From positions 1 to 22,492 of the forward strand of contig CALDNG010000290.1 of assembly GCA_937915285.1 (NCBI GenBank): 22,492 bases of DNA, read 5' to 3'. The notes beneath the pieces are model-generated. The model was not told the origin of the DNA. It searched no databases and worked only from the letters and a program-made list of their open reading frames with translations. Positions 364 to 22,040 of this stretch are shown here, piece after piece (within the stretch, counting starts at the first letter, position 1; each line of letters starts with the position of its first letter). The stretch is from an uncultured Desulfomonile sp. Its GTDB lineage: Bacteria > Desulfobacterota > Desulfomonilia > Desulfomonilales > Desulfomonilaceae. A program made the translations under genes and the position numbers.

Positions 364-1839
364 ATGTCAATCAGGAAAAGTGAATTCGACGGACAATTTA
401 TTCTCTCTCAATATGAAAATGACCTTCCCGCAAAGTGGCGGAAAAGAAAAATAGGCCCATGGATTCTCGCAAGCCACAAAACCCTACCGATTATGGAAAT
501 GTTCCAGTCAGGGGGACAAACTATCGGCTGGTTGTTGGGATACCCTATCACAAATAATGCAGAATTGCTAAATTCTAAGCTAACATTTGAAGAGCAATTC
601 TTGCGCCCTGAGGATTTTGAAGCCTGGTTATGCGGTTTGTCTGGACGATTTGCCTGTATATATCTGCATGGTGATGTGCAGAGGGTTTATCTGGATTCGT
701 GTGGATCGCTTGCCTTGGTCTATTCGACCCAACGAAATTGCGTAGCATCCACAACCACATTGTTGGCTGATATTCACAGAGATGGCGCCCACGAATTAAT
801 CAGCCTCCTTGGAATGCCACATAGTGACGCATGGTATCCGTCGGGGCTTACACCCATGAAGAATGTCAGGCGTCTGTTACCAAATCATTATCTCGATCTG
901 AGCAAATGGAAACCGGTCAGACATTGGCCCAAGCCTTCTGATCTGGATACAAAGACTGATTTCAAACAGACGGTCCAAACAGTAATCGAATCTTTAAAAA
1001 AGAATATTGTTTCTGTTTCAAAACAATATCCGCTCCAGATGTCATTGACCGCCGGTCGAGACAGCAGGATGCTCCTGGCTTGCAGTAAAGAGGTCCTGCA
1101 CCGCATAAAATTTCATACCGGTGTTTGGGTGCCTTCGGGCGTGGATAGTGAAATAGGCCGTCAGTTGGCCACGAAGCTAAAGCTCAATCACGTCACCCTC
1201 AGCGTGAAACTCGCCCAACAACATGAATTGGATGATTGGCAGTTCCGGACAGGACACTGTGTGGCTGGAGAAATCTGGCGGATTCATCCGACTTCGAGGA
1301 AGATAGACCCTCACCGCGCATTCCTGCCGGGTTGCGCCGGAGAAGTCGGAAGGGCCTACTATTGGCGTGAGGATGACGAGAAACTACCAAGGCTTACAGC
1401 CCACGAAATACTAAAGCGAGCCAAGCTTCCAGCAGCGGGTGAGATCCTTCAATTTACCGATGCCTGGCTTGAGGAAATAGCCACCCTTGAATGGAACACC
1501 ATTTTGGACCTGATGTACATCGAGCAGCGTTTGGGTTGCTGGGCCGGGCCTCTTCAGTATGGTCAGGACGGCATGCACAAGGCAAGGCTTTTCCCATTCA
1601 ATGACAGAGCCATATTCAAAGCAATACTCAATTCTCCTGTTGAGCCAAGACGCAGACAGAGACTTGCGGACGATGTCCTGGAATCTGAATGGCCGGAGCT
1701 TCTCGATCTGCCTTTTAACAAGTTGACGGGCGCTGCAGGTCTGATACAGGCCGGAAGGAACATCATTTACTCCGTAGCCTCGGACAGGTTACGAGAATTC
1801 TATGACCAGTTATACGCCTGGAAATTCCAGGCGTGTTGA
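364..1839 (+). CDS. Asparagine synthetase-like protein (degenerate GATase II plus PP-loop domain)
   Basis: The 491-residue protein resembles asparagine synthetase B relatives found in polysaccharide and secondary-metabolite loci. Residues about 50-145 look like the glutamine amidotransferase (Ntn) half, with the family-like stretch GRFACIYLHG and a following VYLDSCGSLALVYS. The catalytic Cys that should follow the initiator Met is absent (the chain starts MSIRKSE), so glutamine hydrolysis is unlikely. Residues 158-180 (GLTPMKNVRRLLPNHYL) match the linker before the synthetase half. SLTAGRDSRM at 227-236 is the ATP-pyrophosphatase P-loop, here AGRDS instead of the usual SGGLDS. It may adenylate a carboxylate and transfer an amine, but the substrate is unknown. 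GGAG at 350-353 lies 10 bases before the chosen ATG. A strong palindrome overlaps its 3' end. Confidence 0.75.
   Translation: MSIRKSEFDGQFILSQYENDLPAKWRKRKIGPWILASHKTLPIMEMFQSGGQTIGWLLGYPITNNAELLNSKLTFEEQFLRPEDFEAWLCGLSGRFACIYLHGDVQRVYLDSCGSLALVYSTQRNCVASTTTLLADIHRDGAHELISLLGMPHSDAWYPSGLTPMKNVRRLLPNHYLDLSKWKPVRHWPKPSDLDTKTDFKQTVQTVIESLKKNIVSVSKQYPLQMSLTAGRDSRMLLACSKEVLHRIKFHTGVWVPSGVDSEIGRQLATKLKLNHVTLSVKLAQQHELDDWQFRTGHCVAGEIWRIHPTSRKIDPHRAFLPGCAGEVGRAYYWREDDEKLPRLTAHEILKRAKLPAAGEILQFTDAWLEEIATLEWNTILDLMYIEQRLGCWAGPLQYGQDGMHKARLFPFNDRAIFKAILNSPVEPRRRQRLADDVLESEWPELLDLPFNKLTGAAGLIQAGRNIIYSVASDRLREFYDQLYAWKFQAC
1814..1834. repeat. Perfect palindrome at the convergent gene ends
   Basis: Arms ACGCCTGGAA (1814-1823) and TTCCAGGCGT (1825-1834) are exact reverse complements around one central base. 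As RNA this makes an 8-bp GC-rich stem with a 5-base loop on either strand. It covers the last codons of the + strand gene, which stops at 1839, and faces the minus-strand transporter, which stops at 1885. No T-tract follows on either strand, so it is at most an atypical bidirectional terminator or processing barrier. Confidence 0.45.
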
Positions 1840-7142: not shown

Positions 7143-9782
7143 TCAATAAAAGAAGACCTGAATAGATTTGGCGAGGCTTGCTGCAAACAAAATGGCTACT
7201 GCGAAATGGGGGACAAACTCGAGTAGGGTTTTGGTTGGCCCGAGTCCTCGGCCAAGGCTCAATCTGTAGATCATGACACCAGAACCCGCCAACCCCAAGA
7301 CAATAAGCAACCGCTGAAAGAATAACGTCCAGTCAGGTGGTACGGTGATTACCATTTTCTGGAAGATCTCAAAATGAAATGTTTGCCACAGAACAATCGG
7401 AAAATAGACTCCCAGGTTGATCAGATAATACAAATGAAACGCCATGAAGCCTGTCATCACCAGAGGCAACATGGCCAGTCCGTATTTTGCAAAATTGTCC
7501 TTAAAGGTTTCTCCCGAGATTTTGGATGAAAAGTACGCTGATAGTCCAAGCAAGGAATTAGAAAAAATGATGATAGCGGTGAAAAATATTGTAAATATGA
7601 GTATATCTGGCAGGTCTATCATGGCCTGAGAAACCGAGTCATACACTGAGGACTTTTTTAACAGGTCGCTCATCAGTCCACCGAACATGCTTATAACGAG
7701 AAATGCGGTAACAGCCCCCACCTGTTTCATTTCCCATATTTCTCTTCCAGGAACCCTCAAATTAAGATTAATAGCTCCGTGAGGACAGTTCTTCACGCAA
7801 TTGCCACACATCTTACAAAAACGATTACTTCTCAAGGATGGAACCATCTGACCGAACGGGCATCCTTCTCTACCTTTGGCGCCAACGAAGCATTCATTTG
7901 AAACGCACTGTGAAGCGCAAACATTCCGGTCAGCCCTCAGCTCGAAAGCCGATACCTTGGCGAAAACTCCCATCATTCCGCCTAAAGGGCATAAGTACCT
8001 GCACCATGACTGACGCTCGAAAATTATTGAGAAAATAATGGCCATCCCGAATATCGTCAGAAGCAACAATCCTGTGTTGAAAGGAGAATTCCTGATGTCA
8101 GTGGCGGTCTCAAGCCAGATTATGAAAATAGCGGAGATAAAAATGATCCAGTCACTATTCTGTTTCAGGAAGGATGGGAACGGGGCGTCGAATGATATGA
8201 GCTTTTTTACCAGATGGCTGACACTTCCCATGGGGCATATGGAGCACCAGAAGCGAGCCCAGAAGAAAGCTCCAAAAATCATGGTTGGCCAGCCGACGGC
8301 CCAGCTAAAAAGGCCTCCAAGGTTATTAACAGGATCAGACGGCCCAAGGAACAGCATTATCAGGAGTATGAAAAAAAACGGGGTCGCGGCGCTCTGAAAT
8401 ATGGCCGGGAACAAGGGGCTTTTCAATGCGCCGTTAATCGACGGAATTCTCATCAGATTGATTTTTCCGTCGCCCTCTATTCGCCTAAGGTCGAAATAAA
8501 TGTCCTGAGGTCTTAGGACTCCATCCTCAGCCAATATTACTGCTCTCTTGAGAGTGGTTGCCAACTCCCTGTCGTTGCCTGGCCAGGAATAACTAACCAG
8601 AGTTTTTATGGTTTCTTTCGGGAGCTTGGAAACATCTTTGTGAAGTTCCTGTGAGTATTTGTTCACATAGTATTGTACGAGAGCAGGAATCTCTTTTCTG
8701 CGTTTCCTGAGAGGTGGCACATCTATGGAATGTGACATCAACCAGTGTAGGAGGGGATGTTTTTCCTGGGATATCTCCGATGCGTCGAGGTTTGTGGTGC
8801 CAATCAACCTGGTGTCGCAATTCTGGAAACTGTAGGAGCCGAGTCTCCTGAACTTCGAGGTTTTAAGAGTGTGGAGCAAATGCTTCTGCATTACCGGCGT
8901 CAGTTGCTCTATTCCCCTCACGAGAAGGGTTCCCTCTTCGGTCAGTTCGAGATATCCAGGAGTTTCAACCCTCACACCACTGTCATTTTTCTTCTCGGAC
9001 CCCAGGAACAGTTTCATCTGATACTCGGTGAGGTCAGTAGACTGGTCGGGGAGTTCGCAGTAATCTGCAGCGTGATCAATCTCTGCCAAAGGGCGTAAAA
9101 GGTCTAGAAAAAGAAATACCCGCTTATGATGAGAACACATCTTGTACATGGCGTGAGCCATAAACTCTTTTCCCACTCCGGTTTCTCCGGTGATCAAAAC
9201 CGGCCAGGGAGAATTGGCCAGTTCCTCCAGCCTTCGGCCTACTCTGCGACGGACTGTTTCGCTAACAAAGTAATCAGGGAAAAGGTGATCCTGCTGGCTA
9301 ATAAGATTCTGGAGGGCTCTTTTTTTTCTAGTATTCTTGTAAACGCTCTGATCAAGGCGGATGACCTTCCTGGCCATGTTCCGCAAGATGCTAAGCGAAA
9401 ACTCTGGATGGAATTTTAGAATGTTTTCAAATTCGTGAGACTCAAGCTCGAAAACCTGGCAATGATCCTTGGCGATCACCTCAGAATTGTGAGGGGCCGG
9501 TCTACCCGTAAGGTAGCTTACCTCTCCGATAACGTCTCCAGGATAAATAGTCTCCACTGAAATATCGGCGCCGTCTATCTCATGGAATATTACACTTGCC
9601 CTTCCGGAAACCAGGAAACGAATCATTGATCCAGGATCTCCTGGCGCTACAATCGCTGCGCCGGGCTGATATTCTTTAACCTCGCCCTTACTCCAGATCA
9701 ACTCTCTGAGTTCAACTGAACATTCCGGAAAAAGCTGGTCTTCTGCAGACGGTAAAAGGTATTGTGTAGCTCTATTAGGCAT
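7143..9782 (-). CDS. CNB - degenerate sigma-54-type AAA+ - NapH/NosR-like membrane iron-sulfur fusion protein
   Basis: 879 residues from the ATG at 9780-9782; an in-frame TTG at 9806 would add 8, and neither start has a good Shine-Dalgarno. Residues about 12-142 are a CRP-like CNB domain. Residues about 165-440 are an AAA+ domain of the NtrC type: Walker A GETGVGKE at 199-206, PPLRKRRKEIP near 356-366, WPGNDREL near 400-407. The GAFTGA loop is missing and the Walker B Asp is lost (GTLLVRGIE at 284-292), so sigma-54 activation is unlikely. There is no DNA-binding helix-turn-helix. Instead, from about 458, membrane helices carry CxxCP (C513, C516), CxxxCP (C594, C598), further Cys at 622, 626, 631 and 641, and a ferredoxin motif C656-C659-C662-C666, followed by four or five more helices. 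This suggests a membrane electron-transfer module controlled by a cytoplasmic sensor. It lies 172 bases downstream of the NtrC-type regulator on the same strand. Confidence 0.85.
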   Translation of the reverse strand: MPNRATQYLLPSAEDQLFPECSVELRELIWSKGEVKEYQPGAAIVAPGDPGSMIRFLVSGRASVIFHEIDGADISVETIYPGDVIGEVSYLTGRPAPHNSEVIAKDHCQVFELESHEFENILKFHPEFSLSILRNMARKVIRLDQSVYKNTRKKRALQNLISQQDHLFPDYFVSETVRRRVGRRLEELANSPWPVLITGETGVGKEFMAHAMYKMCSHHKRVFLFLDLLRPLAEIDHAADYCELPDQSTDLTEYQMKLFLGSEKKNDSGVRVETPGYLELTEEGTLLVRGIEQLTPVMQKHLLHTLKTSKFRRLGSYSFQNCDTRLIGTTNLDASEISQEKHPLLHWLMSHSIDVPPLRKRRKEIPALVQYYVNKYSQELHKDVSKLPKETIKTLVSYSWPGNDRELATTLKRAVILAEDGVLRPQDIYFDLRRIEGDGKINLMRIPSINGALKSPLFPAIFQSAATPFFFILLIMLFLGPSDPVNNLGGLFSWAVGWPTMIFGAFFWARFWCSICPMGSVSHLVKKLISFDAPFPSFLKQNSDWIIFISAIFIIWLETATDIRNSPFNTGLLLLTIFGMAIIFSIIFERQSWCRYLCPLGGMMGVFAKVSAFELRADRNVCASQCVSNECFVGAKGREGCPFGQMVPSLRSNRFCKMCGNCVKNCPHGAINLNLRVPGREIWEMKQVGAVTAFLVISMFGGLMSDLLKKSSVYDSVSQAMIDLPDILIFTIFFTAIIIFSNSLLGLSAYFSSKISGETFKDNFAKYGLAMLPLVMTGFMAFHLYYLINLGVYFPIVLWQTFHFEIFQKMVITVPPDWTLFFQRLLIVLGLAGSGVMIYRLSLGRGLGPTKTLLEFVPHFAVAILFAASLAKSIQVFFY

Positions 9783-9953
9783 TTCTGTAATGGACAGCGA
9801 AAACAATTTGGTGAACGTTGTTAAAAAGGGCCATAATTAACATGTCATGCTCATTTTAGCAGAGCAGATGATTAAATCAAACCATCATGTCGAAATTATC
9901 ATTGCATGACGCACGCACTCATTTGATCAATTACATCATCGGGCTATTATACT

Positions 9954-11381
9954 TCAATCCCTGACTGCCGTTTCAATTTTTATTCCATATTTCTCAATTT
10001 TTGCCAGCAATGTTGGACGGGACAAACCTAGAATCCTTGCAGCCTGTGATCTGTTTCCAGATGTTAGGGTTAGAGCCTCTGTCATCAACATTCTGGCAAA
10101 ATGATCAATTATATCGCCAAAAATTTTTTCACCTCCGCCTCCGATTAGCGCTCTTCTTATCCAAAGGCGAATGGCTTCATCCTCGGCCCCCTTACCAATC
10201 TCAACATCAGATGTTTCCACTTTAAGAGCCTGCGAGATTTCTTCTCCACTGATGGGGGCTCCCCTGCTAAAGATGAGGGCCTTCTGGATCGTGTTTCCGA
10301 GTTCTCTGACATTTCCGGGCCATGAGTATGTTTCCATGACACTTTTGGCTTCCTCACTGATACCCGGACTATTAACCGACATTTCACGAGCGTGTCTCTT
10401 TAGGAAGTAGTCGGCCAGCATTGGTATGTCGCCTTTTCGCTCTCGCAGAGGCGGTAATTGTAATGTTACTACCTTAAGCCTGTAGTAAAGATCCTCACGG
10501 AACCGCCCCTCGGCTAAAGCTGCTTCCAAGTCCCTGTTAGTAGCCGCAATCACTCTGACATCAACAGGAATGGGTGATCTGCCACCAAGTCTTTCTATGC
10601 TTTTCTCCTGAAGTAATCTCAATATCTTAGCTTGGATGCTAAAGGGCATGTCTCCTATTTCGTCCAGAAATACCGTCCCCCCGTTAGCTTGTTCGATTTT
10701 TCCCATTCTGCGGTTTACTGCGCCGGTGAAGGCCCCTTTTTCATAACCGAACAGTTCGCTTTCCAGTAGCGTCTCAGGGATAGCAACACAGTTAATGACC
10801 AGGAACGGTTTGTCTGAACGAACGCTGTGCTGATATATTGCCCTGGCCACGAGTTCCTTGCCGGTTCCGGATTCTCCGCGGATAAGTATTGTCGCTCCAG
10901 TGGAAGCTACACGCCCTATTTGTTTGAAGACCTCCTGCATAGCCCTGCTTCTGCCGAATATGGCCTGTGCGCTGTCCTTTTCCGGAAGCATGTCCATCTC
11001 GACCCTCGAGCGCATGAACCTGCCCGCTTCCAGGGCTTTATCAATGGTGGCCAGCATCTCTGGAATGTCAAAAGGTTTCAGAACATAGTCATAAGCCCCC
11101 ATTTTTGTGGCTTCTATGGCAGTGTCCGTGTTTCCGTAGGCTGTCATTACGATGACCGGGGCCTTGGGCTGTATTTCGTGCATCGCCCTGAAAGTCTCCA
11201 GGCCATCCATTCCCGGAAGTCTGACATCCATTATCACGAGATCCGGTTGGTCCTTCTTAAATACTTCCAATCCGGCCTCACCCGTAGGACAAGTCCGGAC
11301 ATTGTGACCTTCCGCCAATAGCAGCTTCTCAAAACTATGCCTCAATTGGGCATCATCATCCACTATCAAGATATTTCCCAA
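9954..11381 (-). CDS. NtrC-family sigma-54-dependent response regulator
   Basis: 475 residues with the complete three-domain layout. Residues 1-120 form the receiver domain, with acidic D8-D10, phospho-acceptor D52, T80 and K102. Residues about 138-375 form the AAA+ domain: Walker A GESGTGKE at 169-176, the sigma-54 contact loop GAFTGA at 216-221, Walker B GTVFLDEIGD at 235-244, PPLRERKGDIP at 310-320 and WPGNVREL at 354-361. Residues about 435-466 are a Fis-type helix-turn-helix (NRSQAARILGLSRPTLLAKI). It should bind enhancer sites and open sigma-54 promoters when phosphorylated. Its ATG lies one base after the sensor kinase stop, so the two form one operon. The sigma-54 promoter at 13253-13268 in the same intergenic interval is an obvious candidate target. 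Confidence 0.95.
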   Translation of the reverse strand: MGNILIVDDDAQLRHSFEKLLLAEGHNVRTCPTGEAGLEVFKKDQPDLVIMDVRLPGMDGLETFRAMHEIQPKAPVIVMTAYGNTDTAIEATKMGAYDYVLKPFDIPEMLATIDKALEAGRFMRSRVEMDMLPEKDSAQAIFGRSRAMQEVFKQIGRVASTGATILIRGESGTGKELVARAIYQHSVRSDKPFLVINCVAIPETLLESELFGYEKGAFTGAVNRRMGKIEQANGGTVFLDEIGDMPFSIQAKILRLLQEKSIERLGGRSPIPVDVRVIAATNRDLEAALAEGRFREDLYYRLKVVTLQLPPLRERKGDIPMLADYFLKRHAREMSVNSPGISEEAKSVMETYSWPGNVRELGNTIQKALIFSRGAPISGEEISQALKVETSDVEIGKGAEDEAIRLWIRRALIGGGGEKIFGDIIDHFARMLMTEALTLTSGNRSQAARILGLSRPTLLAKIEKYGIKIETAVRD

Positions 11382-11382
11382 G

Positions 11383-12849
11383 TTAGGCTCCAGTTGCAGG
11401 TAGAGTTATGATAAAGGTGGCTCCATGACCTTCGTGAGATTCAAGCGAAAGCTCACCCCTGTGCTCCTCTACGATCCGTGTGGCTATACTCAAACCTAAT
11501 CCGGTACCCTCCTCCTTTGTGCTGAAAAAGGGTTGGAAAAGTTTTTCCTTGATTGAGTTTGGCACTCCCGGACCGTCATCACTGACCTTTATCACAATAT
11601 TTTTTGTAAAGGAATTCTTCGACCGGACTTCCTCCTGGATGACTATGTGTCCGCCGTCAACAATGGCGTCACATGCGTTTACTATAAGGTTGACGAACAC
11701 TTCTTTCAGTTGATCGGGGTCCGCTGATATTTCCGGAAGTCGCTGGTTTCTCTCTATCCTAACCTTCACGTCGTAGGACTCAAGCCTATGTCTTAACAAC
11801 TGAACAGCCATATCGACTGCATCCGATGGACTGACTTGTTGCATCTTCAGTTTTGGAGGTCTTGAGAATTCCAGAAAATTTCCGACTATTGTATCCAGAT
11901 GGCGTATTTCCTCGGAAATAACTTCAAAATCCTCCACCTGGCTACGGCTAAGCGCAAGCGTCCGTTCCATCGAGAAAAGGCGCATCTTGACCGAAGTTAA
12001 TGGGTTTCGGACGCTGTGAGCAACTCCAGCAGCCAGTTTTCCAACCAGCGCCCATTTCTCGGCCTGTTCCAGATGCTCCCGGGACCATTCAAGTTTGCTT
12101 TTTGTCTGGTCCACGTCCGCTATGAGGGTCTTAAAGATTTCACTAAGCGCTTTGACCTCATTCTCCTGAGGAACCCCCACTGCGCCTAAATTTGTGGCCA
12201 TGGCTAACTGCCTGATGGGACCAAGGACTTGTTTGATGAGTATGTAAGCCAGCAGGAGACCGAGTACAAGCACAGTGAATAAACCGGCGAAGGCTGAAGC
12301 GTTTAAAAGCACTGCCCTGTCACGTATCTTTTCCTGGGCGAACGATATCCTGTCAGCGTATGCAGCATTAAATTGGCGACATAAGTCGATTATCTTGAAA
12401 AACTGACCCCTGACATTTTTATGAAGCTTGTAACCCTCTTCTTTGTAACCTCTCTTGTAAAGATCAACCACCTCGTCCCGTGAAATACTATAGCGTATGT
12501 AAAGTGAATCTATCTCGTTCAGAATCTCGCGCTCTTTTTCAGTGACAGCCCACTGCCTGGCACGCCTCAGCCAGATTTCGAAAGCCGCATGATGCTTATC
12601 GAGTTCCTTGATCCACGATTCATCATTATCCTGAAAATAATAAGTCACATAGCCCTTTTGCATTACAAGGGCGTTTTCAAGTTCCTGAGCCGCCTGCATC
12701 GCTGAGAAATCAGTTTCGAAAATGTTGTTTATCAACCGGTCAATCTTGAATGTATAGGCTATTGATATCAAAGCTCCAGCGGCAGTTATGATCACAAGAG
12801 CGCTCAGGACAATCAAAAGACGCGTCTGAAGACTGAGTTGTCTCCACAT
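11383..12849 (-). CDS. Membrane sensor histidine kinase, partner of the NtrC-type regulator
   Basis: 488 residues. Transmembrane helices lie near residues 10-32 and 183-206 and enclose an entirely helical periplasmic region of about 150 residues like the four-helix bundle of chemoreceptors. A HAMP-like segment (about 207-255) precedes HisKA with phospho-acceptor H278 in AAGVAHSVRNPLTS. The ATPase domain shows the N box NLIVNACDA at 387-395, the G1 box DDGPGVP at 424-430 and the G2 box EGTGLGLSI at 447-455. It should phosphorylate D52 of the regulator encoded one base downstream. GGAGG at about 10 bases from the ATG at 12849 supports the start. The signal is unknown; the bundle has no obvious ligand motif. 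Confidence 0.94.
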   Translation of the reverse strand: MWRQLSLQTRLLIVLSALVIITAAGALISIAYTFKIDRLINNIFETDFSAMQAAQELENALVMQKGYVTYYFQDNDESWIKELDKHHAAFEIWLRRARQWAVTEKEREILNEIDSLYIRYSISRDEVVDLYKRGYKEEGYKLHKNVRGQFFKIIDLCRQFNAAYADRISFAQEKIRDRAVLLNASAFAGLFTVLVLGLLLAYILIKQVLGPIRQLAMATNLGAVGVPQENEVKALSEIFKTLIADVDQTKSKLEWSREHLEQAEKWALVGKLAAGVAHSVRNPLTSVKMRLFSMERTLALSRSQVEDFEVISEEIRHLDTIVGNFLEFSRPPKLKMQQVSPSDAVDMAVQLLRHRLESYDVKVRIERNQRLPEISADPDQLKEVFVNLIVNACDAIVDGGHIVIQEEVRSKNSFTKNIVIKVSDDGPGVPNSIKEKLFQPFFSTKEEGTGLGLSIATRIVEEHRGELSLESHEGHGATFIITLPATGA

Positions 12850-12931: not shown

Positions 12932-13116
12932 GGATTGATCGCCTGCATAAATTTGCTAGATCAAGCCTTTAAAATAACTTAAAAAAAGAAAACTGTCGAC
13001 AGATTATTTCGTTTCGCGCAAGCTCATCCACAGCTCTGACACGGTCCAGCCTAAAGGTTGCTAAACAACTCCTGTCGGACGCATTTCTGTCTAGTAAGGC
13101 ACTGTTATTATTATCA

Positions 13117-13175
13117 GTTGTGAATTCCAACCCAATGATAGTTGTTTTACAACCGGAATAGCCGGAATACAACCG
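13117..13175. promoter_or_regulatory. Candidate enhancer-binding sites for a sigma-54 activator
   Basis: Two neighbouring inverted repeats share the half-sites GTTG and CAAC: GTTG-7 bases-CAAC at 13117-13131 and GTTGT-TTT-ACAAC at 13141-13153. In addition TACAACCG occurs at 13148-13155 and again at 13168-13175, exactly 20 bp apart. The dyads lie about 125-165 bp upstream of the expected start of the sigma-54 promoter, the usual distance for NtrC-type enhancers. Which regulator binds is an inference; the adjacent one is the simplest candidate. Confidence 0.45.
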
Positions 13176-13252
13176 CTCAGTGGCTTGACACAGCAGGTCG
13201 TAACAGTTTGAAATTAAACGCGTTATTGTTAGGTAAGTGTCTTTGGGGTATA

Positions 13253-13268
13253 TGGCACAGAGTTTGCT
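13253..13268 (+). promoter_or_regulatory. Sigma-54 (-24/-12) promoter
   Basis: TGGCACAGAGTTTGCT matches the consensus TGGCAC-N5-TTGCW throughout, with the invariant GG (13254-13255) and GC (13266-13267) at the correct spacing. Transcription on the + strand would start near 13278-13280. No normal-length gene follows before the terminator at 13393-13416, and the next gene, iorB, is on the opposite strand. It is divergent from the kinase/NtrC-type operon. Confidence 0.75.
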
Positions 13269-13310
13269 TCTCCTGGCTGATAGCAATGAGCCAACGGTTC
13301 CGCAGGGCCG

Positions 13311-13391
13311 ATGCGAGCTGAAGTCCCTATTTGGTCTTGCCTTGCGGAACTGATTTCAGGATTCTTTCAAACCTTTGGGTTTGCAAAATAA
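13311..13391 (+). CDS. Possible 26-codon peptide within the sigma-54 transcript
   Basis: ATG at 13311 to TAA at 13389-13391, just before the terminator. The peptide begins MRAEVPIWSCLAEL and ends FFQTFGFAK, so it is rather hydrophobic. The only purine-rich element, AGGG at 13304-13307, is just 3 bases from the ATG and would be buried in the predicted stem, so translation is doubtful. Listed as the alternative reading of the candidate small RNA. Confidence 0.2.
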   Translation: MRAEVPIWSCLAELISGFFQTFGFAK

Positions 13392-13392
13392 A

Positions 13393-13416
13393 AAAGGACG
13401 CCGATAGGCGTCCTTT
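13393..13416 (-). terminator. Intrinsic terminator of iorAB (possibly bidirectional)
   Basis: AAAGGACGCC (13393-13402) and GGCGTCCTTT (13407-13416) form a perfect 10-bp stem with loop GATA. Read on the minus strand, the stem lies 18 bases beyond the iorB stop and runs into TTTTTATTTT, a classical U-tract. Read on the + strand the tail is TTTCTGTG, weaker but possibly enough to end the sigma-54 transcript. Confidence 0.85.
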
Positions 13417-13434
13417 CTGTGTAAGAGACATTGT

Positions 13435-14022
13435 TCAAGACGCTAGTGAACGTCCCTCATTAAAAGCCTTCAGGTTTATATCCAACAGCTTTGGTTTGAG
13501 AGATTCCTTTAAAACTTCTTCATATGTTTCTACCGGTATGTCTAGGTAATTGGATAGCACCCCGAGTAGAATGACATTGATAACCCGGGAATTCCCAATC
13601 TTGTTTGCTACTTCCGTCCCATTCACTATGACTGAACGTGGAGCCTTTTCTTTAACCTTTTCTATGATGCCGGCAGGGTAGTCCTGTAGACCGGTGAATA
13701 CCGCCGGGGGAAGGATTCTCTGATCGTTCAGAATCACCTGGCCTTCTTTGGACAGGAAAGGGAAATATCTGAGGGTTTCAATCTGTTCAAAGGATACCAG
13801 CACGTCGGCCTCTCCCATTTTTATGATTGGAGAGGACACCTTCTTACCGAACCTCACATGACTGGAAACCGACCCGCCACGTTGGGCCATTCCATGTATT
13901 TCGTTTTTCTTTACATCGTATCCACGACGAGCGGCGACACGACCGAGCACATCACTGGCCAGAATGATTCCCTGGCCTCCAACTCCCACGATCAGGACAT
14001 TATAAACTTTATCAAGGCTCAT
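13435..14022 (-). CDS. iorB: Indolepyruvate:ferredoxin oxidoreductase, beta subunit
   Basis: 195 residues, the usual size for IorB. It is the gamma-domain-type subunit of the 2-oxoacid:acceptor oxidoreductase family and partners IorA in oxidative decarboxylation of aryl pyruvates (from Trp, Phe, Tyr) to aryl-acetyl-CoA, reducing ferredoxin in the cytoplasm. The N-terminal VGVGGQGIILASDVLG (residues about 12-27) and the NEIHGMAQRGGSVSSHVRFG stretch (about 41-60) are diagnostic for the family. Its ATG overlaps the iorA stop codon (ATGA, 14019-14022), so translation is coupled. The intrinsic terminator follows 18 bases after the stop. Confidence 0.93.
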   Translation of the reverse strand: MSLDKVYNVLIVGVGGQGIILASDVLGRVAARRGYDVKKNEIHGMAQRGGSVSSHVRFGKKVSSPIIKMGEADVLVSFEQIETLRYFPFLSKEGQVILNDQRILPPAVFTGLQDYPAGIIEKVKEKAPRSVIVNGTEVANKIGNSRVINVILLGVLSNYLDIPVETYEEVLKESLKPKLLDINLKAFNEGRSLAS

Positions 14023-15800
14023 GACGCCTCCTCAATAGCGTTGAACTTGCAGACCTCGAAACAAGTGTTGCATCCGACGCAAAGTGAAGCATTAATTCTG
14101 GAATATCCCTTAAACTTCTTTCCCTTCACCGTTCTCTCTTCCTTAACGTATTCCAGCGCGGGGCATCCAGTGTTTATGCAACTCTTGCATCCCGTACAGT
14201 TTTCGGGGTTTATTGAGAGCGGTTTGTCCGGAAGTATTCTTCCGGTTTTTAGCAGTGCGCAGGGCGCTTTGGCTATGATCACGGAAGGCTCGTCAGCGTT
14301 CAGCTCTTCAGAAAGCACCTGCTGAAGCTCTTTCACCTTGTATGGGTTGACCTTACGAATTCGTTTGAAGCCAAATGATTCACAAAGTTTTTCCATATCC
14401 GCCGTTATGGTCTGATCCTCACGCAGGGTGTAACCGGTTCCTGGGTGATGCTGCGCCCCCGTCATGGCCGTGGTGCTGTTGTCCATTATCACTATGGTCG
14501 CTGCTCCGCCATTGTAGGCCAGTTCAAGCAAAGGCGTCATGCCTGAATGGTAGAAGGTGGAATCACCAATAACCGCTACCGCCTTTCCCTTGGCCAGGTC
14601 GCCGAGGGATCTGGCTAAACCCGCCGCTATACCGATGCCGGCGCCCATGCAAAGACAATTGTCCAGCATTCCTAAGGGCGGCAAAGCGCCAAGAGTGTAG
14701 CAGCCAATGTCACCGGCTACGTAAAGTTTGTGTTTCTTCAACGCAGTGAATGTAGCCCTGTGGGGACATCCAGGACACAAGTTGGGTGGACGCATAGGCA
14801 GTTCAACGTCTATCGATCCAATGGATTCGGCGGACGATTTTCCCTTTAGAGCTATCTCAATCTTTTCAACGGACAATTCACCGCAAAGACCTGTCAGGCT
14901 CTTGCCCTCTACCTGAATACCCATCAAACGAATTGCCTCTTCAAAAAACGGGTCAAGTTCCTCAATGACAACCAGTCTGTCAACCGACGCTGCAAATTTC
15001 CTGATCAACTTTTCCGGAAGTGGCCAAACCATCCCCAGCTTCAGAAAGGAAGCTTCTGGAAGGGCTTCTCGGGCGTACTGGTAAGCTATTCCCGAAGCTA
15101 TTATTCCCAGTGACTTAGACCCCTCAGTAATTATGTTGTACTGAAATGTCTCCGCAAATTCAGCAAGGTCCTTCATGCGCTGCTCTACCCAAGGGTGCTT
15201 TTTGCGCGCCATGGCCGGGAGCATAACGAACTTCACGGGGTCTTTCTTTAAACCCAATTCCACCGCACCCTCTGTCCTTGAACCGGTTTCAACCAGGGAC
15301 ATCGAATGCGATACCCGCGTAGTGCTTCTGAAAATTACCGGTGTATCGAATTTTTCAGAAATCTTGAGCGCTTCTCCGATCAGATCTTTGGCCTCCTGGC
15401 TATCGGACGGTTCGAGACACGGTGTCTTGCCAAACTTGGCATAGTTACGTGTGTCCTGTTCGTTCTGCGATGAGTGCATCTCCGGATCGTCACATACAAC
15501 AATAACCAGACCTCCGTTGACACCGGTGTAAGAAAGAGTCATGAAGGGGTCGGCCGCAACGTTCAAGCCTACGTGCTTCATCGCTGCTAAAGCCCTGGCG
15601 CCGCCATATGCCGCGCCGGCGGCCACTTCCAACGCAACCTTCTCGTTTGGAGCCCATCCAGCTTTTATCTCCGGATACCTGTCCCCTATGTATTCCAGAA
15701 TCTCCGTGCTGGGGGTGCCGGGGTAGGCCGAGGCCAACCTCACACCATACTCATAGGCTCCTCGTGCAATAGCTTCGTTTCCTGACAATAGCTCTTTCAC
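14019..15800 (-). CDS. iorA: Indolepyruvate:ferredoxin oxidoreductase, alpha subunit
   Basis: 593 residues. It starts at the GTG at 15798-15800, because AGGTG lies 8 bases upstream; an in-frame TTG two codons earlier is too close to that site. SGNEAIARGAYEYGV and AYPGTPSTEILEYI at the N-terminus are typical IorA pyrimidine-binding sequence. CPGCPHR at about 342-348 and GDSTF...MDNSTTAMTG at about 412-448 form the thiamine-diphosphate domain. The C-terminus carries two 4Fe-4S motifs, C535-C538-C541-C546 (the last gap is longer, CINTGC) and C575-C578-C581-C585. In anaerobes the enzyme ferments or assimilates aromatic amino acids via aryl pyruvates. It forms a two-gene operon with iorB. A promoter with a perfect TTGACA and a 14-bp palindrome lies in its leader. 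Confidence 0.95.
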   Translation of the reverse strand: MKELLSGNEAIARGAYEYGVRLASAYPGTPSTEILEYIGDRYPEIKAGWAPNEKVALEVAAGAAYGGARALAAMKHVGLNVAADPFMTLSYTGVNGGLVIVVCDDPEMHSSQNEQDTRNYAKFGKTPCLEPSDSQEAKDLIGEALKISEKFDTPVIFRSTTRVSHSMSLVETGSRTEGAVELGLKKDPVKFVMLPAMARKKHPWVEQRMKDLAEFAETFQYNIITEGSKSLGIIASGIAYQYAREALPEASFLKLGMVWPLPEKLIRKFAASVDRLVVIEELDPFFEEAIRLMGIQVEGKSLTGLCGELSVEKIEIALKGKSSAESIGSIDVELPMRPPNLCPGCPHRATFTALKKHKLYVAGDIGCYTLGALPPLGMLDNCLCMGAGIGIAAGLARSLGDLAKGKAVAVIGDSTFYHSGMTPLLELAYNGGAATIVIMDNSTTAMTGAQHHPGTGYTLREDQTITADMEKLCESFGFKRIRKVNPYKVKELQQVLSEELNADEPSVIIAKAPCALLKTGRILPDKPLSINPENCTGCKSCINTGCPALEYVKEERTVKGKKFKGYSRINASLCVGCNTCFEVCKFNAIEEAS

Positions 15801-16260: not shown

Positions 16261-17334
16261 ATGCTGAAATTAACGTTAGTGGCGGCAGTAGTTGTGTGTT
16301 TATCTGTTGGGTCCGGGTTTGCGCAACAGGTTGATGAGCGTGGCAAGCAGAGAGGGCCTCGCCAGGCCAAGCTCGGCGAAATGCCCAGATCAGTGGGGCC
16401 TTCAATGATGGCGAGGAGCTTCAATGATAGGTCGGACGCTGGGACAGTGACTCCGGTCTCCGTTGAAATCCCTTCCAGCCAGTCCGGAATGCAGCCTAAA
16501 TCCAGCCCTGACATGCGACAGTCGAAATCCTCAAACCAGATCAGTTCAGCAACGCGGCTTTCGAATCGAAAATCCCTATATGATTTGAAGATGCCTGGTG
16601 AATATGCTGGATTGGGTTTGCCGTCACTCATGAACACCCCGAACTCTTTCAGGACCGCATCATTAGTAGAGAGAAATCGTATTGAATCACTGCTGATGCC
16701 GGGTAGTTTCCTGAGAGGTTTGGGAGGTCTTCCGTCAATCCAGGAGGTTCCGGTCGAAAAATTGACTAATGAGGAAACAACTTATTGGAAGAGATTATTG
16801 ATCGAGGTAAGCCACTCGTCCCACATTTTCAAGTTATTTTCGGAGGCGGCCGATGGAAGAAGAGAAACACTTTACGAGTGTAAGATTGGATTAGGGGCTC
16901 CTGAATTTCCGACTCCGGTTGGGGTTTACTATGTGACTCATATTTATGATCAGGACCCTTGGTGGATACCGCCTCCTAACAGGGCGTGGGCGGCAGGTGA
17001 TTCTCCGAGTCAGCGTGTATATGGTGGAACCATGGCGCCGCTGCTCAAAAAGAAAATGGTCAGTGTCAGGAAGAAGGATAGGGAAAAATCACAGGAGGAT
17101 TTTGTTGAGAATCAGGTGAAACTCGAAGATTATGGATATCGTTTTCACGGCACCAATCAACCGAGGAGTATAGGACGAAACCAGTCTCATGGTTGTGTGA
17201 GGATGTTGTCTGATGACGCCAAGAGAGTTTCCAACCTAATAAAGGATCATGTCGGGGCCCTTGATCGGAGGGAATCGGAGAATGGCCCTTATGTAGTGTT
17301 AAAGTCTCCTGTTATACTCAACCTTGTAAAGTGA
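16261..17334 (+). CDS. Secreted L,D-transpeptidase (YkuD/ErfK family)
   Basis: 357 residues. Residues 1-21 are a signal peptide with a short positive start, a hydrophobic core and SGFAQ at the cleavage region, so it acts in the periplasm. Residues about 25-170 are low-complexity and probably disordered. The YkuD domain spans about 178-350: an IGLGAPEFPTPVGVYYV stretch (209-225), HGT at 297-299, and the catalytic SHGCVRM at 309-315 with nucleophile C312 and R314. Such enzymes make 3-3 peptidoglycan cross-links or attach proteins to peptidoglycan; which applies is not visible. The start has only a weak ribosome-binding site (GTGGGA), but the signal peptide supports it. It converges with the hybrid kinase gene, whose stop is 31 bases away. 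Confidence 0.92.
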   Translation: MLKLTLVAAVVVCLSVGSGFAQQVDERGKQRGPRQAKLGEMPRSVGPSMMARSFNDRSDAGTVTPVSVEIPSSQSGMQPKSSPDMRQSKSSNQISSATRLSNRKSLYDLKMPGEYAGLGLPSLMNTPNSFRTASLVERNRIESLLMPGSFLRGLGGLPSIQEVPVEKLTNEETTYWKRLLIEVSHSSHIFKLFSEAADGRRETLYECKIGLGAPEFPTPVGVYYVTHIYDQDPWWIPPPNRAWAAGDSPSQRVYGGTMAPLLKKKMVSVRKKDREKSQEDFVENQVKLEDYGYRFHGTNQPRSIGRNQSHGCVRMLSDDAKRVSNLIKDHVGALDRRESENGPYVVLKSPVILNLVK

Positions 17335-20186: not shown

Positions 20187-22040
20187 CTACCTGGTTCCGA
20201 GACGGGATTCAATTTGGCGCATTAAGTGTGAAAACGATACCGGTTTGGTAAACACAGCATCGATTCCGCACACTTCTATGCGGTCCTTGCTGCTGGTCTG
20301 TCCTCCCCAACCTGTTAGCATGAAGAAGGGTGTCTTCGGAATATTTTTTTCGATGCAGATTTCTTTCATCCTCGCTGCTACATCCCATCCTGTCATGTTC
20401 GGCATTCCCAGATCGCAAATAACCACATCACATCCGTGTTCCAGAAATTTCTCAATAGCGTCTTGGCCGTTTGTCGCAACAAGGGCTGAGTGACCATGCA
20501 TCTCCAAACCCTCTTTGAGTATTTCAAGTATTGATTCATCATCATCAACACAAAGAATTCGCAATTTGCCGTCTTCAGGAAGGTTTGTTCCCCAGGGCCC
20601 CGGCAAACGATGGTTCTCTAACGGTACAGTTACGGTAAACCTTGAACCCGAGCCCTTTTGTGAGTCCACTGATATGGAACCATTATAACGGTTTATTATG
20701 CCCAGGCTGCTTGACAGACCAAGACCGCTCGAATGATAGCCCTTTGTCGTCCAAAAAGGCTGAAAGATTTTCTCTTGGTCTTCCAAGGGAATACCCGTTC
20801 CGTTATCCTCAACGATGAACTCAATGCTATTGCCTTTAAAGCCGGTTGAAACAGAAAGTATTCCCCCTTGGGGCATAGCCTCCGCCGCGTTTTTTATGAG
20901 GCTCATGGCAACCTCAAAAAAATCCTCCTCGTGCCCCTTTAAAAAAAGACCAGGGGTCAATTCACGTTTCATATCAATGAGAACGCCCTTGAGTTCCGCA
21001 TTTGTTTTCCACCACGGACGGCTCATTTCAACAGCATTTTTTACCACCTGAGACAGATCGAATTCGCGCTCATGTGCTGAATCATCTGCTACGCTGATCC
21101 CTGCAAACTCTTGCAACCTTCGAACCGTGATTGCGCCGAGTTCTGAATTCTCCATTATCATGTGGAGTTGTTTTTTAACATCGGTCACTTCACCATTTTC
21201 GATTCGGGCCAATGCCAGACTTGTCGCCCCAAGGATCACCTGAAGGATATTGTTAAAGTTGTGCGCCACCCCTGTGGCAAGGTCAGCCACTGCCTTAAGT
21301 TTCTCGTTCTCGAGTCTGATCTTCTCAGTCAGTTCATGATCCGTGACATCTTCGAGGAACAATTGGCTGCCTAAAACATCCCCCGTCCAATCAGAGACCG
21401 ATGCTATCAGGCACTTTAGAACGAGATTCTTGTTATCTTTCTGCTGGAGCCTTACCTCTGATGAAACTTCAGTGGCCTTTTCAAAACTCTGCCTCAATAA
21501 CCTGTCAATCCCGGTTTGAATAAAGGCCGAGTTCAAAAACACATTTTCCGGCTTACTCACATCCGAGCCATTGAAGTTGAGCATCCGCCTGAACCTGGGG
21601 TTGCTGTGCAACAACTCCCCTTGCCTGTTTATGTAAGCCATGGCGATGGGCATTTTGTCTATAAGGGTCCGGTGCTGGATGGAGGTGATTCGTTCAATTA
21701 TCAATGTTTTCTGGTGCTCTGGGCCTTCCGTCCGTGCAATGTCCCTGATGGAACATAATATCCACTTTGTGCCTTCATTTAATAATTCCGAGCTGCGAAT
21801 TTCAGCTATCCTTACAGGCGCATTCTTACTGATAATCTCAATTTCTGAAACTGAACCTTTTGTTAGAGGAAGACCAAAATTCTGTCCCAGTAATTCATTC
21901 TGGCTCATTCCAAACAAGCTCTCTGCGGCCGAATTGGCGCGTCTTACCGAACCTGTTGAGTCCAGGATCAGTATCGCATCCTTCAACTGGTCGATTAACT
22001 CGAAGAAAAATGTTGACGAATCAGCATTGTCAAATGTCAT
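20187..22040 (-). CDS. PAS/PAS hybrid histidine kinase with receiver domain, downstream of the kaiC-like gene
   Basis: 617 residues, cytoplasmic. PAS domains lie at about 12-100 (LKDAILILDSTGSVRRANSA) and 122-235 (MPIAMAYINRQGELLHSNP). The phospho-acceptor H260 sits in ATGVAHNFNNILQV. The ATPase domain shows SLIKNAAEAMPQGG (380-393), EDNGTGIP (411-418) and SGLGLSSSLGI (438-448). The receiver spans about 493-615, with acidic DDDE at 499-502, phospho-acceptor D543 and KP at 599-600. It begins 6 bases after the kaiC-like stop codon, so the two are almost certainly co-transcribed, and the kinase is a likely partner of the KaiC-like protein, analogous to cyanobacterial SasA. No SasA-type KaiB-like N-terminal domain is present. 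The ribosome-binding site is weak, consistent with translational coupling. Confidence 0.92.
   Translation of the reverse strand: MTFDNADSSTFFFELIDQLKDAILILDSTGSVRRANSAAESLFGMSQNELLGQNFGLPLTKGSVSEIEIISKNAPVRIAEIRSSELLNEGTKWILCSIRDIARTEGPEHQKTLIIERITSIQHRTLIDKMPIAMAYINRQGELLHSNPRFRRMLNFNGSDVSKPENVFLNSAFIQTGIDRLLRQSFEKATEVSSEVRLQQKDNKNLVLKCLIASVSDWTGDVLGSQLFLEDVTDHELTEKIRLENEKLKAVADLATGVAHNFNNILQVILGATSLALARIENGEVTDVKKQLHMIMENSELGAITVRRLQEFAGISVADDSAHEREFDLSQVVKNAVEMSRPWWKTNAELKGVLIDMKRELTPGLFLKGHEEDFFEVAMSLIKNAAEAMPQGGILSVSTGFKGNSIEFIVEDNGTGIPLEDQEKIFQPFWTTKGYHSSGLGLSSSLGIINRYNGSISVDSQKGSGSRFTVTVPLENHRLPGPWGTNLPEDGKLRILCVDDDESILEILKEGLEMHGHSALVATNGQDAIEKFLEHGCDVVICDLGMPNMTGWDVAARMKEICIEKNIPKTPFFMLTGWGGQTSSKDRIEVCGIDAVFTKPVSFSHLMRQIESRLGTR

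Follow-up and report, generated by a model that had tools for sequence, protein, structure and literature searches.

A candidate sigma-54-dependent small RNA gene beside a histidine kinase/NtrC-type regulator pair in Desulfomonile-like bacteria

In an uncultured Desulfomonile sp., the gap that separates a histidine kinase gene from an iorB-like gene probably harbours, in a judgement held with fair rather than high confidence, a stand-alone, lineage-specific gene of Desulfomonile-like bacteria for a sigma-54-controlled regulatory small RNA (sRNA), the loop of which would pair with mRNAs. The predicted sRNA extends on the plus strand from 13279, a start placed about 12 nt past the -12 GC of the promoter, to approximately 13418, where the terminator ends, in a window (the whole stretch of DNA analysed) of 22,492 nucleotides. 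The original prediction, made from this DNA alone, proposed a sigma-54 promoter driving a structured, non-coding and possibly undescribed RNA, and it is supported by conservation in a sister genome (G397), by the Rfam comparison and by the lack of a common plus-strand reading frame of at least 20 codons.

The 585 bp gap contains both the sigma-54 site and the folded RNA. The kinase gene (11383–12849, minus strand; Pfam domains 4HB_MCP_1, HisKA and HATPase_c) diverges from the sRNA and adjoins a gene for an NtrC-family sigma-54 activator with receiver, AAA+ and Fis-type HTH domains in Pfam (9954–11381, minus strand), the obvious candidate for activating the promoter. The iorB-like gene (13435–14022, minus strand; indolepyruvate oxidoreductase beta, NCBIfam NF005322, 257 bits against a cut-off of 237) converges on the sRNA and has iorA as its upstream neighbour. 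The first accepted plus-strand gene past the sRNA is a YkuD gene at 16261, and the earlier plus-strand frames (13858–14325 and 15175–15444) both lie opposite iorAB; the RNA is therefore not a leader. The organism labels among the named relatives of the kinase are Desulfomonile (tiedjei or sp.), Desulfomonilaceae, Deltaproteobacteria and Pseudomonadota. Two further genes of the window deserve mention in their own right. An unusual 887-aa fusion (7143–9806, minus strand) joins a cyclic-nucleotide-binding domain, an AAA+ part of the sigma-54-activator type and a part resembling 4Fe-4S polyferredoxins; its Pfam hits include no DNA-binding HTH, and inspection by eye revealed no GAFTGA motif. A 491-aa ORF (364–1839, plus strand), with zero Pfam hits at E 0.001, resembles asparagine-synthase-like proteins by eye.

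The promoter TGGCACAGAGTTTGCT (13253–13268, plus strand) is an exact TGGCAC-N5-TTGCT sequence, which bears out the full -24/-12 match claimed for it. It is the sole exact match to this pattern within the window and the sole site reaching the maximal score in the sigma-54 scan of the window, where 0.04 exact TGGCAC-N5-TTGCW sites are expected on both strands (100 first-order Markov shuffles). Loose sigma-54-like matches with at most two mismatches are not enriched in the window (3 observed vs 6.0 expected). The G397 counterpart reads GGGCAC-N5-TTGC; 12 of its 16 columns are identical, with GGCAC and TTGC retained and the first T replaced by G, and the -24/-12 bases stand between diverged flanks. 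Transcription and its dependence on sigma-54 are inferred.

Downstream of the promoter, the plus strand folds into a main stem of 13 pairs, two of them G-U in the window, between a 5' arm at 13296–13308 and a 3' arm at 13339–13351, so that the long-range stem originally predicted at 11 bp is present and slightly longer. Within it, an inner helix (13317–13322 with 13330–13336, six pairs and one bulge) presents the apical loop GUCCCUA (13323–13329), which is invariant in the window and G397. The fold of 13279–13422 reaches -53.1 kcal/mol (z -3.67), an energy that includes the contribution of the terminator and is equalled or bettered by none of 200 shuffles; the G397 counterpart gives z -4.74, with one of 200 shuffles equal or better. 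The second hairpin of the original prediction (13368–13383, plus strand) exists in the window, where its two 6-bp arms are perfect inverted repeats of each other, but is not kept in the G397 alignment. The conserved RNA core spans 13285–13356 (plus strand).

The search of 42 genomes of the class with the DNA of 13245–13425 returned one strong match, in G397 (E 9e-21, 88% over 75 bases), the remaining listed matches being short with E at least 0.026. The gene order of G397 is that of the window (kinase, gap, sRNA, iorB), read across two contigs, one carrying the kinase and the other the sRNA and iorB, which overlap by 96 identical bases; the kinase proteins are 87% identical. In the comparison of these two genomes, 64 of 74 aligned columns of the core are identical (86%, two columns being edge gaps) against 94 of 259 (36%) of all upstream sequence (Fisher p 4e-15). 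The upstream identity amounts to 34/107 columns far upstream, then 27/70 and 33/82 nearer, and the leader between promoter and core retains 7/16. The core also exceeds the DNA identity of iorB (77%). Both the promoter and the main stem, the loss of which in close relatives would have spoken against the prediction, are thus conserved in G397, the sole readable relative, and the kinases P0002–P0008, 83–88% identical, point to the existence of further sister lineages; among the genomes compared at the DNA level, G397 (87%) is the one with a kinase this similar.

The substitutions that separate the two cores leave the structure intact. There are eight, five of them in helices, and 19 of 19 named pairs are retained. 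In the helices, one pair has changed on both sides, from C-G to U-A, and three pairs on one side: the main stem carries the double change and two one-sided changes, the inner helix a single U-G to U-A change, and pairing is preserved in both. When substitutions were simulated at random, 1.4% of runs retained every pair; for runs with at least five helix hits the figure was 0.13%. With one side of the structure displaced by 1–3 columns, 26–55% of cells were paired vs 100% unshifted, which lends the structure mild support, as it was derived from the same two sequences. The shuffle control of pairing, with two sequences, had no power and is uninformative, since 276 of 500 shuffles do as well as the real alignment. 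An extra inner A-U pair outside the named structure (columns 33/54 of alignment A4) is A-C in G397. Read from the minus strand, 15 (window) and 16 (G397) of the 19 pairs would form; the G-U pairs thus favour the plus strand as the RNA, and a minus-strand RNA, whether a long kinase leader or an iorAB 3' element, is disfavoured on the same ground.

The range of the element was assessed in the genomes of the kinase search, a sample of 395 genomes of the phylum (G397 included) followed by the 42 genomes of one class. A covariance model built from the window and G397 cores, with which G397, itself used in the building, scores 104 bits, detected the core in 1/42 class genomes and 1/395 sampled phylum genomes under the stricter filters of Infernal; the match was G397 both times. 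With 18 sources, the model found the two true loci and, at the same places, weak (13 bits) matches on the antisense strand. Kinase carriers number 14 of the 42 class genomes at E <= 1e-170, and in the 13 others the core is absent by this model. Rfam includes models for GlmY/GlmZ, Qrr and CrcZ. The Rfam scan gave zero matches at gathering score for this RNA, in line with the earlier statement that no family was recognised, and the 10 window hits obtained when E was allowed to rise to 10 include neither GlmY/GlmZ nor Qrr nor CrcZ. The STnc50 family (RF02059) matched below threshold (29.4 bits vs a gathering score of 55, E 0.0027) and covered 13354–13424 only. The candidate is probably a narrow-range addition to the known functional class of sigma-54-dependent sRNAs that matches no Rfam family at gathering score.

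A second candidate RNA came to light at the equivalent locus of two other kinase carriers, G405 and G406. This hairpin (L118:1125–1215, minus strand, with matching L117/L145) consists of GTGGAGGGC..GCCCTCCAT enclosing ACGAGAAAGGCCACACGCGAGAGGGAACTTTT and lies 3' of a sigma-54 promoter divergent from the kinase and 5' of a CBS-like gene, in a region that is 82% identical between the two genomes over about 110 bp, promoter included. Rfam gave nothing at gathering score in L144/L145 and nothing up to E 1 in L118/L117. Kinship of this hairpin to the RNA of the window was considered and rejected, as there is no covariance-model match and the common GGCC..GCGAG letters are too few.

Other explanations of the conserved hairpin have to be weighed against an sRNA gene acting on distant mRNAs. 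The RNA could be real but local: a transcript converging on iorB might lower iorAB expression because polymerases collide or because it reads through antisense to iorAB, and the hairpin would do no more than stabilise it. The predicted sRNA and iorB are convergent and have in common a terminator stem with 10 perfect base pairs (13393–13416); at 13391–13418, 22/30 columns are identical in G397. The original prediction assigned this stem to the sRNA; the stem is present, but the terminator scan of the window called it on the minus strand only, i.e., for iorB. The terminator is bidirectional, with the stronger T-run on the iorB side, and since the scan recognises the minus strand only, it serves iorB at least equally well. 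The weak T-run of the plus strand in the window (TTTCTGTGT after the stem) would favour read-through, and G397 has the same arrangement; the plus-strand T-run of G397 (TTTTTAGTTTT) is good, however, which argues against read-through there. Moreover, conservation sits in the upstream hairpin and not near iorB, where 16/35 columns are identical in the stretch 3' of the core and 9/27 at 13419–13440. A purely local role is therefore unlikely in our estimation.

A coding function has less to recommend it. Frames of at least 12 codons touching the core, with ATG, GTG or TTG starts, number seven in the window (21 to 105 codons) and four in G397, and those window frames that begin with ATG and run for 33 and 26 codons are interrupted in G397. 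No plus-strand frame of at least 20 codons is common to the two genomes even with GTG and TTG starts allowed, which upholds the original description of the region as having no normal ORF. The only pair of that length, a 21-codon TTG frame at the same place on the minus strand, has 6/21 residues alike by hand count, and the coding reading was rejected on these two grounds. The longest plus-strand ATG stretch open in both genomes, 11 codons from the ATG at 13286 to a TGA, could specify a conserved peptide (MSQRFRRADAS in the window, MCQRFREADAS in G397) with the hairpin as its context. We regard this as highly improbable: two of the 11 residues differ, one via two base changes, the changes keep the stem paired, no convincing ribosome-binding site was seen by eye, and the next accepted gene on the strand begins only at 16261. 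Chance is hardly more attractive. A sigma-54-like site that arose at random beside the terminator of iorB, together with a hairpin of no significance, would fit the detection of the element in just one other genome among the 42 of the class and the 395 of the phylum, and loose sigma-54-like matches are common; yet 86% core identity within diverged flanks with all named pairs retained, together with an exact promoter expected 0.04 times per window, makes such a coincidence very unlikely.

Two GTTG-N5-CAAC dyads, possible enhancer sites, occupy 13057–13069 and 13141–13153 in the gap, 84 bp apart; from the centre of the nearer one to the -24 GG the distance is about 107 bp. The window holds four such dyads vs 0.29 expected, the two outside the gap being at 12724 and 21600, and none of 100 shuffled windows had a pair within 300 bp. 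Neither gap dyad is conserved in G397, the gap of which carries GTGGTTTAAAAACCAC in place of the window dyads, and the pattern is not enriched over a reversed-pattern control in seven genomes, two results that speak against the dyads as activator sites.

A different motif emerged from the relatives. In five kinase carriers besides G397 (G405, G406, G314, G407 and G408), a sigma-54-like promoter points away from the kinase on its upstream side, preceded in each by TTTACA-N3-TGTAAA..CTGACA or a close variant; by hand arithmetic, the motif lies 111–115 bp from the promoter in G405, G406 and G407, whereas for G314 and G408 the distance is about 208 bp. Looser sigma-54 matches only, more than 1,200 bases away, were found in G403, G332 and G388. 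Farther along the promoter strand, a CBS-like gene, recognised by eye, is present in G405, G406, G314 and G407, preceded by another frame in G407; the first genes of G408 are different. The motif TTTACA-N3-TGTAAA-RAANNCTGACA has 38 sites in six genomes vs 1 for the reversed control, and of the 18 sites out of the 38 that were fetched (L194–L211), all but one, which belongs to G397, have a sigma-54-like site at a distance of 30–330 bp (17 of 18, vs 21% of random positions). Class-wide, 54 sites occur in the 14 kinase carriers and 6 in the other 28 genomes (reversed control, 5 in all 42), the carriers G400, G403 and G409 being without a site. The motif has the appearance of an enhancer that serves a sigma-54 regulon, and this regulon is plausibly that of the neighbouring regulator, a correlation that is confounded by kinship.

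Activation of the promoter by the neighbouring kinase and NtrC-type regulator, as QseEF drives glmY, would be compatible with the sRNA reading, and these three observations (the five promoters with their upstream motif, the proximity of 17/18 sites to sigma-54-like sites, the concentration in kinase carriers) favour it. QseF recognises the consensus TGTN12ACA, and RapZ is a partner of GlmY/GlmZ. Against activation by the neighbour, neither the gap of the window nor that of G397 contains the motif of the relatives (best matrix scores 4.7 and 6.6, where the 18 building sites score 22.6–41.6 and four further sites from relatives, not used in the building, 30.6–35.5), despite five motif sites elsewhere in the G397 genome and a recognition-helix stretch, LSRPTLLAKIEKYGI, that is identical in the window and G397. 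The link between motif and regulator is, moreover, correlational, with three carriers lacking sites. Seven other loci (L115, L116, L085, L086, L120, L121 and L088) scored at most 5.0 in the motif scan, which left out L119; L114, L119 and L120 hold 356, 197 and 351 upstream bases, and the gap of L114, which is G397, was completed with a second contig. Activation through the relatives' motif was rejected for its absence from the window and G397, and control by the neighbour in any form is tentatively given somewhat less than an even chance.

For the preferred reading, an sRNA gene with its own sigma-54 promoter, the course of events would be as follows. Once activated by a bacterial enhancer-binding protein, sigma-54 RNA polymerase would start near 13279 and would stop at the terminator common to iorB; the RNA would form the 13-bp stem capped by the inner hairpin displaying GUCCCUA, and this C-rich loop could, probably with the assistance of Hfq, pair with target mRNAs where their ribosome-binding regions are rich in G. 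C-rich loops are known to seek Shine-Dalgarno sequences. The invariant loop would be the natural pairing seed. The hfq gene was found above the cut-off in 6/6 relatives tested, which makes a pairing sRNA plausible. Pairing of the loop region with the 11 gene starts of the window gave nothing convincing; the lowest energy, at the gene at 22040 (minus strand), is matched by 6% of 200 shuffles.

One complementarity of the loop region drew attention. The 17 nt at 13324–13340 (plus strand) are exactly complementary to the RNase P RNA of ten relatives: the exact 17-mer occurs in 10/42 class genomes (G403, G402, G404, G332, G388, G106, G407, G406, G314 and G405), by coordinates always within RF00010 matches on the opposite strand, five of which were also scanned directly. 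RNase P RNA was matched in 39/42 class genomes, and most genomes therefore differ somewhere in the stretch. The duplex of the window loop with G405 rnpB reaches -36.0 kcal/mol, matched by 0/500 shuffles. In G397, rnpB reads GCAAGACCTAATAGGGA and the sRNA is complementary to it at 14 of 17 positions, without covariation, the duplex of -20.6 kcal/mol being matched by 8.8% of shuffles. Some complementarity remains in the crosses of the window loop with G397 rnpB (-28.0, matched by 0.8% of shuffles) and of the G397 loop with G405 rnpB (-25.2, 0.4%). That the loop regulates RNase P in antisense fashion, pairing over about 17 nt with a conserved part of its RNA under the condition sensed by the sigma-54 system and lowering tRNA maturation, seems extremely doubtful; it was rejected for the want of covariation in G397 and the 3/17 mismatches with its own rnpB, and the complementarity is a probable coincidence.

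Regulatory RNAs seem to have received little attention in Desulfobacterota. The open-licence literature searched, on sigma-54 and small RNAs in Deltaproteobacteria and on small RNAs in Desulfomonile, yielded no account of an RNA of this kind, and no mention of sigma-54 was found in extracts of a computational survey of ncRNAs in Oleidesulfovibrio alaskensis G20 (PMC11124144). Among the relatives, the divergent sigma-54 promoter leads to a CBS-like gene in some lineages and to the RNA here, suggesting that its output has changed between lineages.

The likeness to GlmY/GlmZ and Qrr drawn by the original prediction holds for the layout but goes no further. In Enterobacteriaceae, according to extracts of PMC6075780, GlmY is an enhancer-dependent sRNA gene with a sigma-54 promoter beside the genes of the QseE/QseF kinase and regulator; the pair is also covered in PMC8745638. 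Like glmY as described in those extracts (PMC6075780), the candidate has a sigma-54 promoter and stands beside genes for a histidine kinase and a sigma-54 response regulator. Unlike glmY, its kinase genes are divergent and not downstream, there is no Rfam match at gathering score, and the host group is different. The CrcZ and CrcY RNAs are sigma-54-dependent, and CrcZ titrates Hfq via many A-rich motifs. In Pseudomonadaceae, extracts of PMC8871633 describe a CrcZ/CrcY-type regulatory RNA gene next to CbrAB as a transcription unit of its own, with CrcZ antagonising catabolite repression; CrcZ and CbrAB are also treated in PMC6296734. The candidate likewise adjoins a two-component system as a separate unit, but its conserved part is one stem-loop and it has no Rfam match. 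The Qrr sRNAs of Vibrio depend on sigma-54 and the response regulator LuxO and consist of stem-loops ending in a terminator; the candidate resembles them in the layout of promoter, stem-loops and terminator and differs in the lack of an Rfam match and in the one copy found in G397. In C-rich-loop sRNAs, e.g., the staphylococcal ones with a UCCC motif, an exposed loop pairs with Shine-Dalgarno sequences, and the exposed UCCCU of the candidate could do the same; the staphylococcal RNAs belong to a different phylum. If transcribed, the candidate would add to Desulfobacterota a sigma-54-controlled sRNA beside a kinase/regulator pair, echoing the glmY–qseEF and crcZ–cbrAB arrangements.
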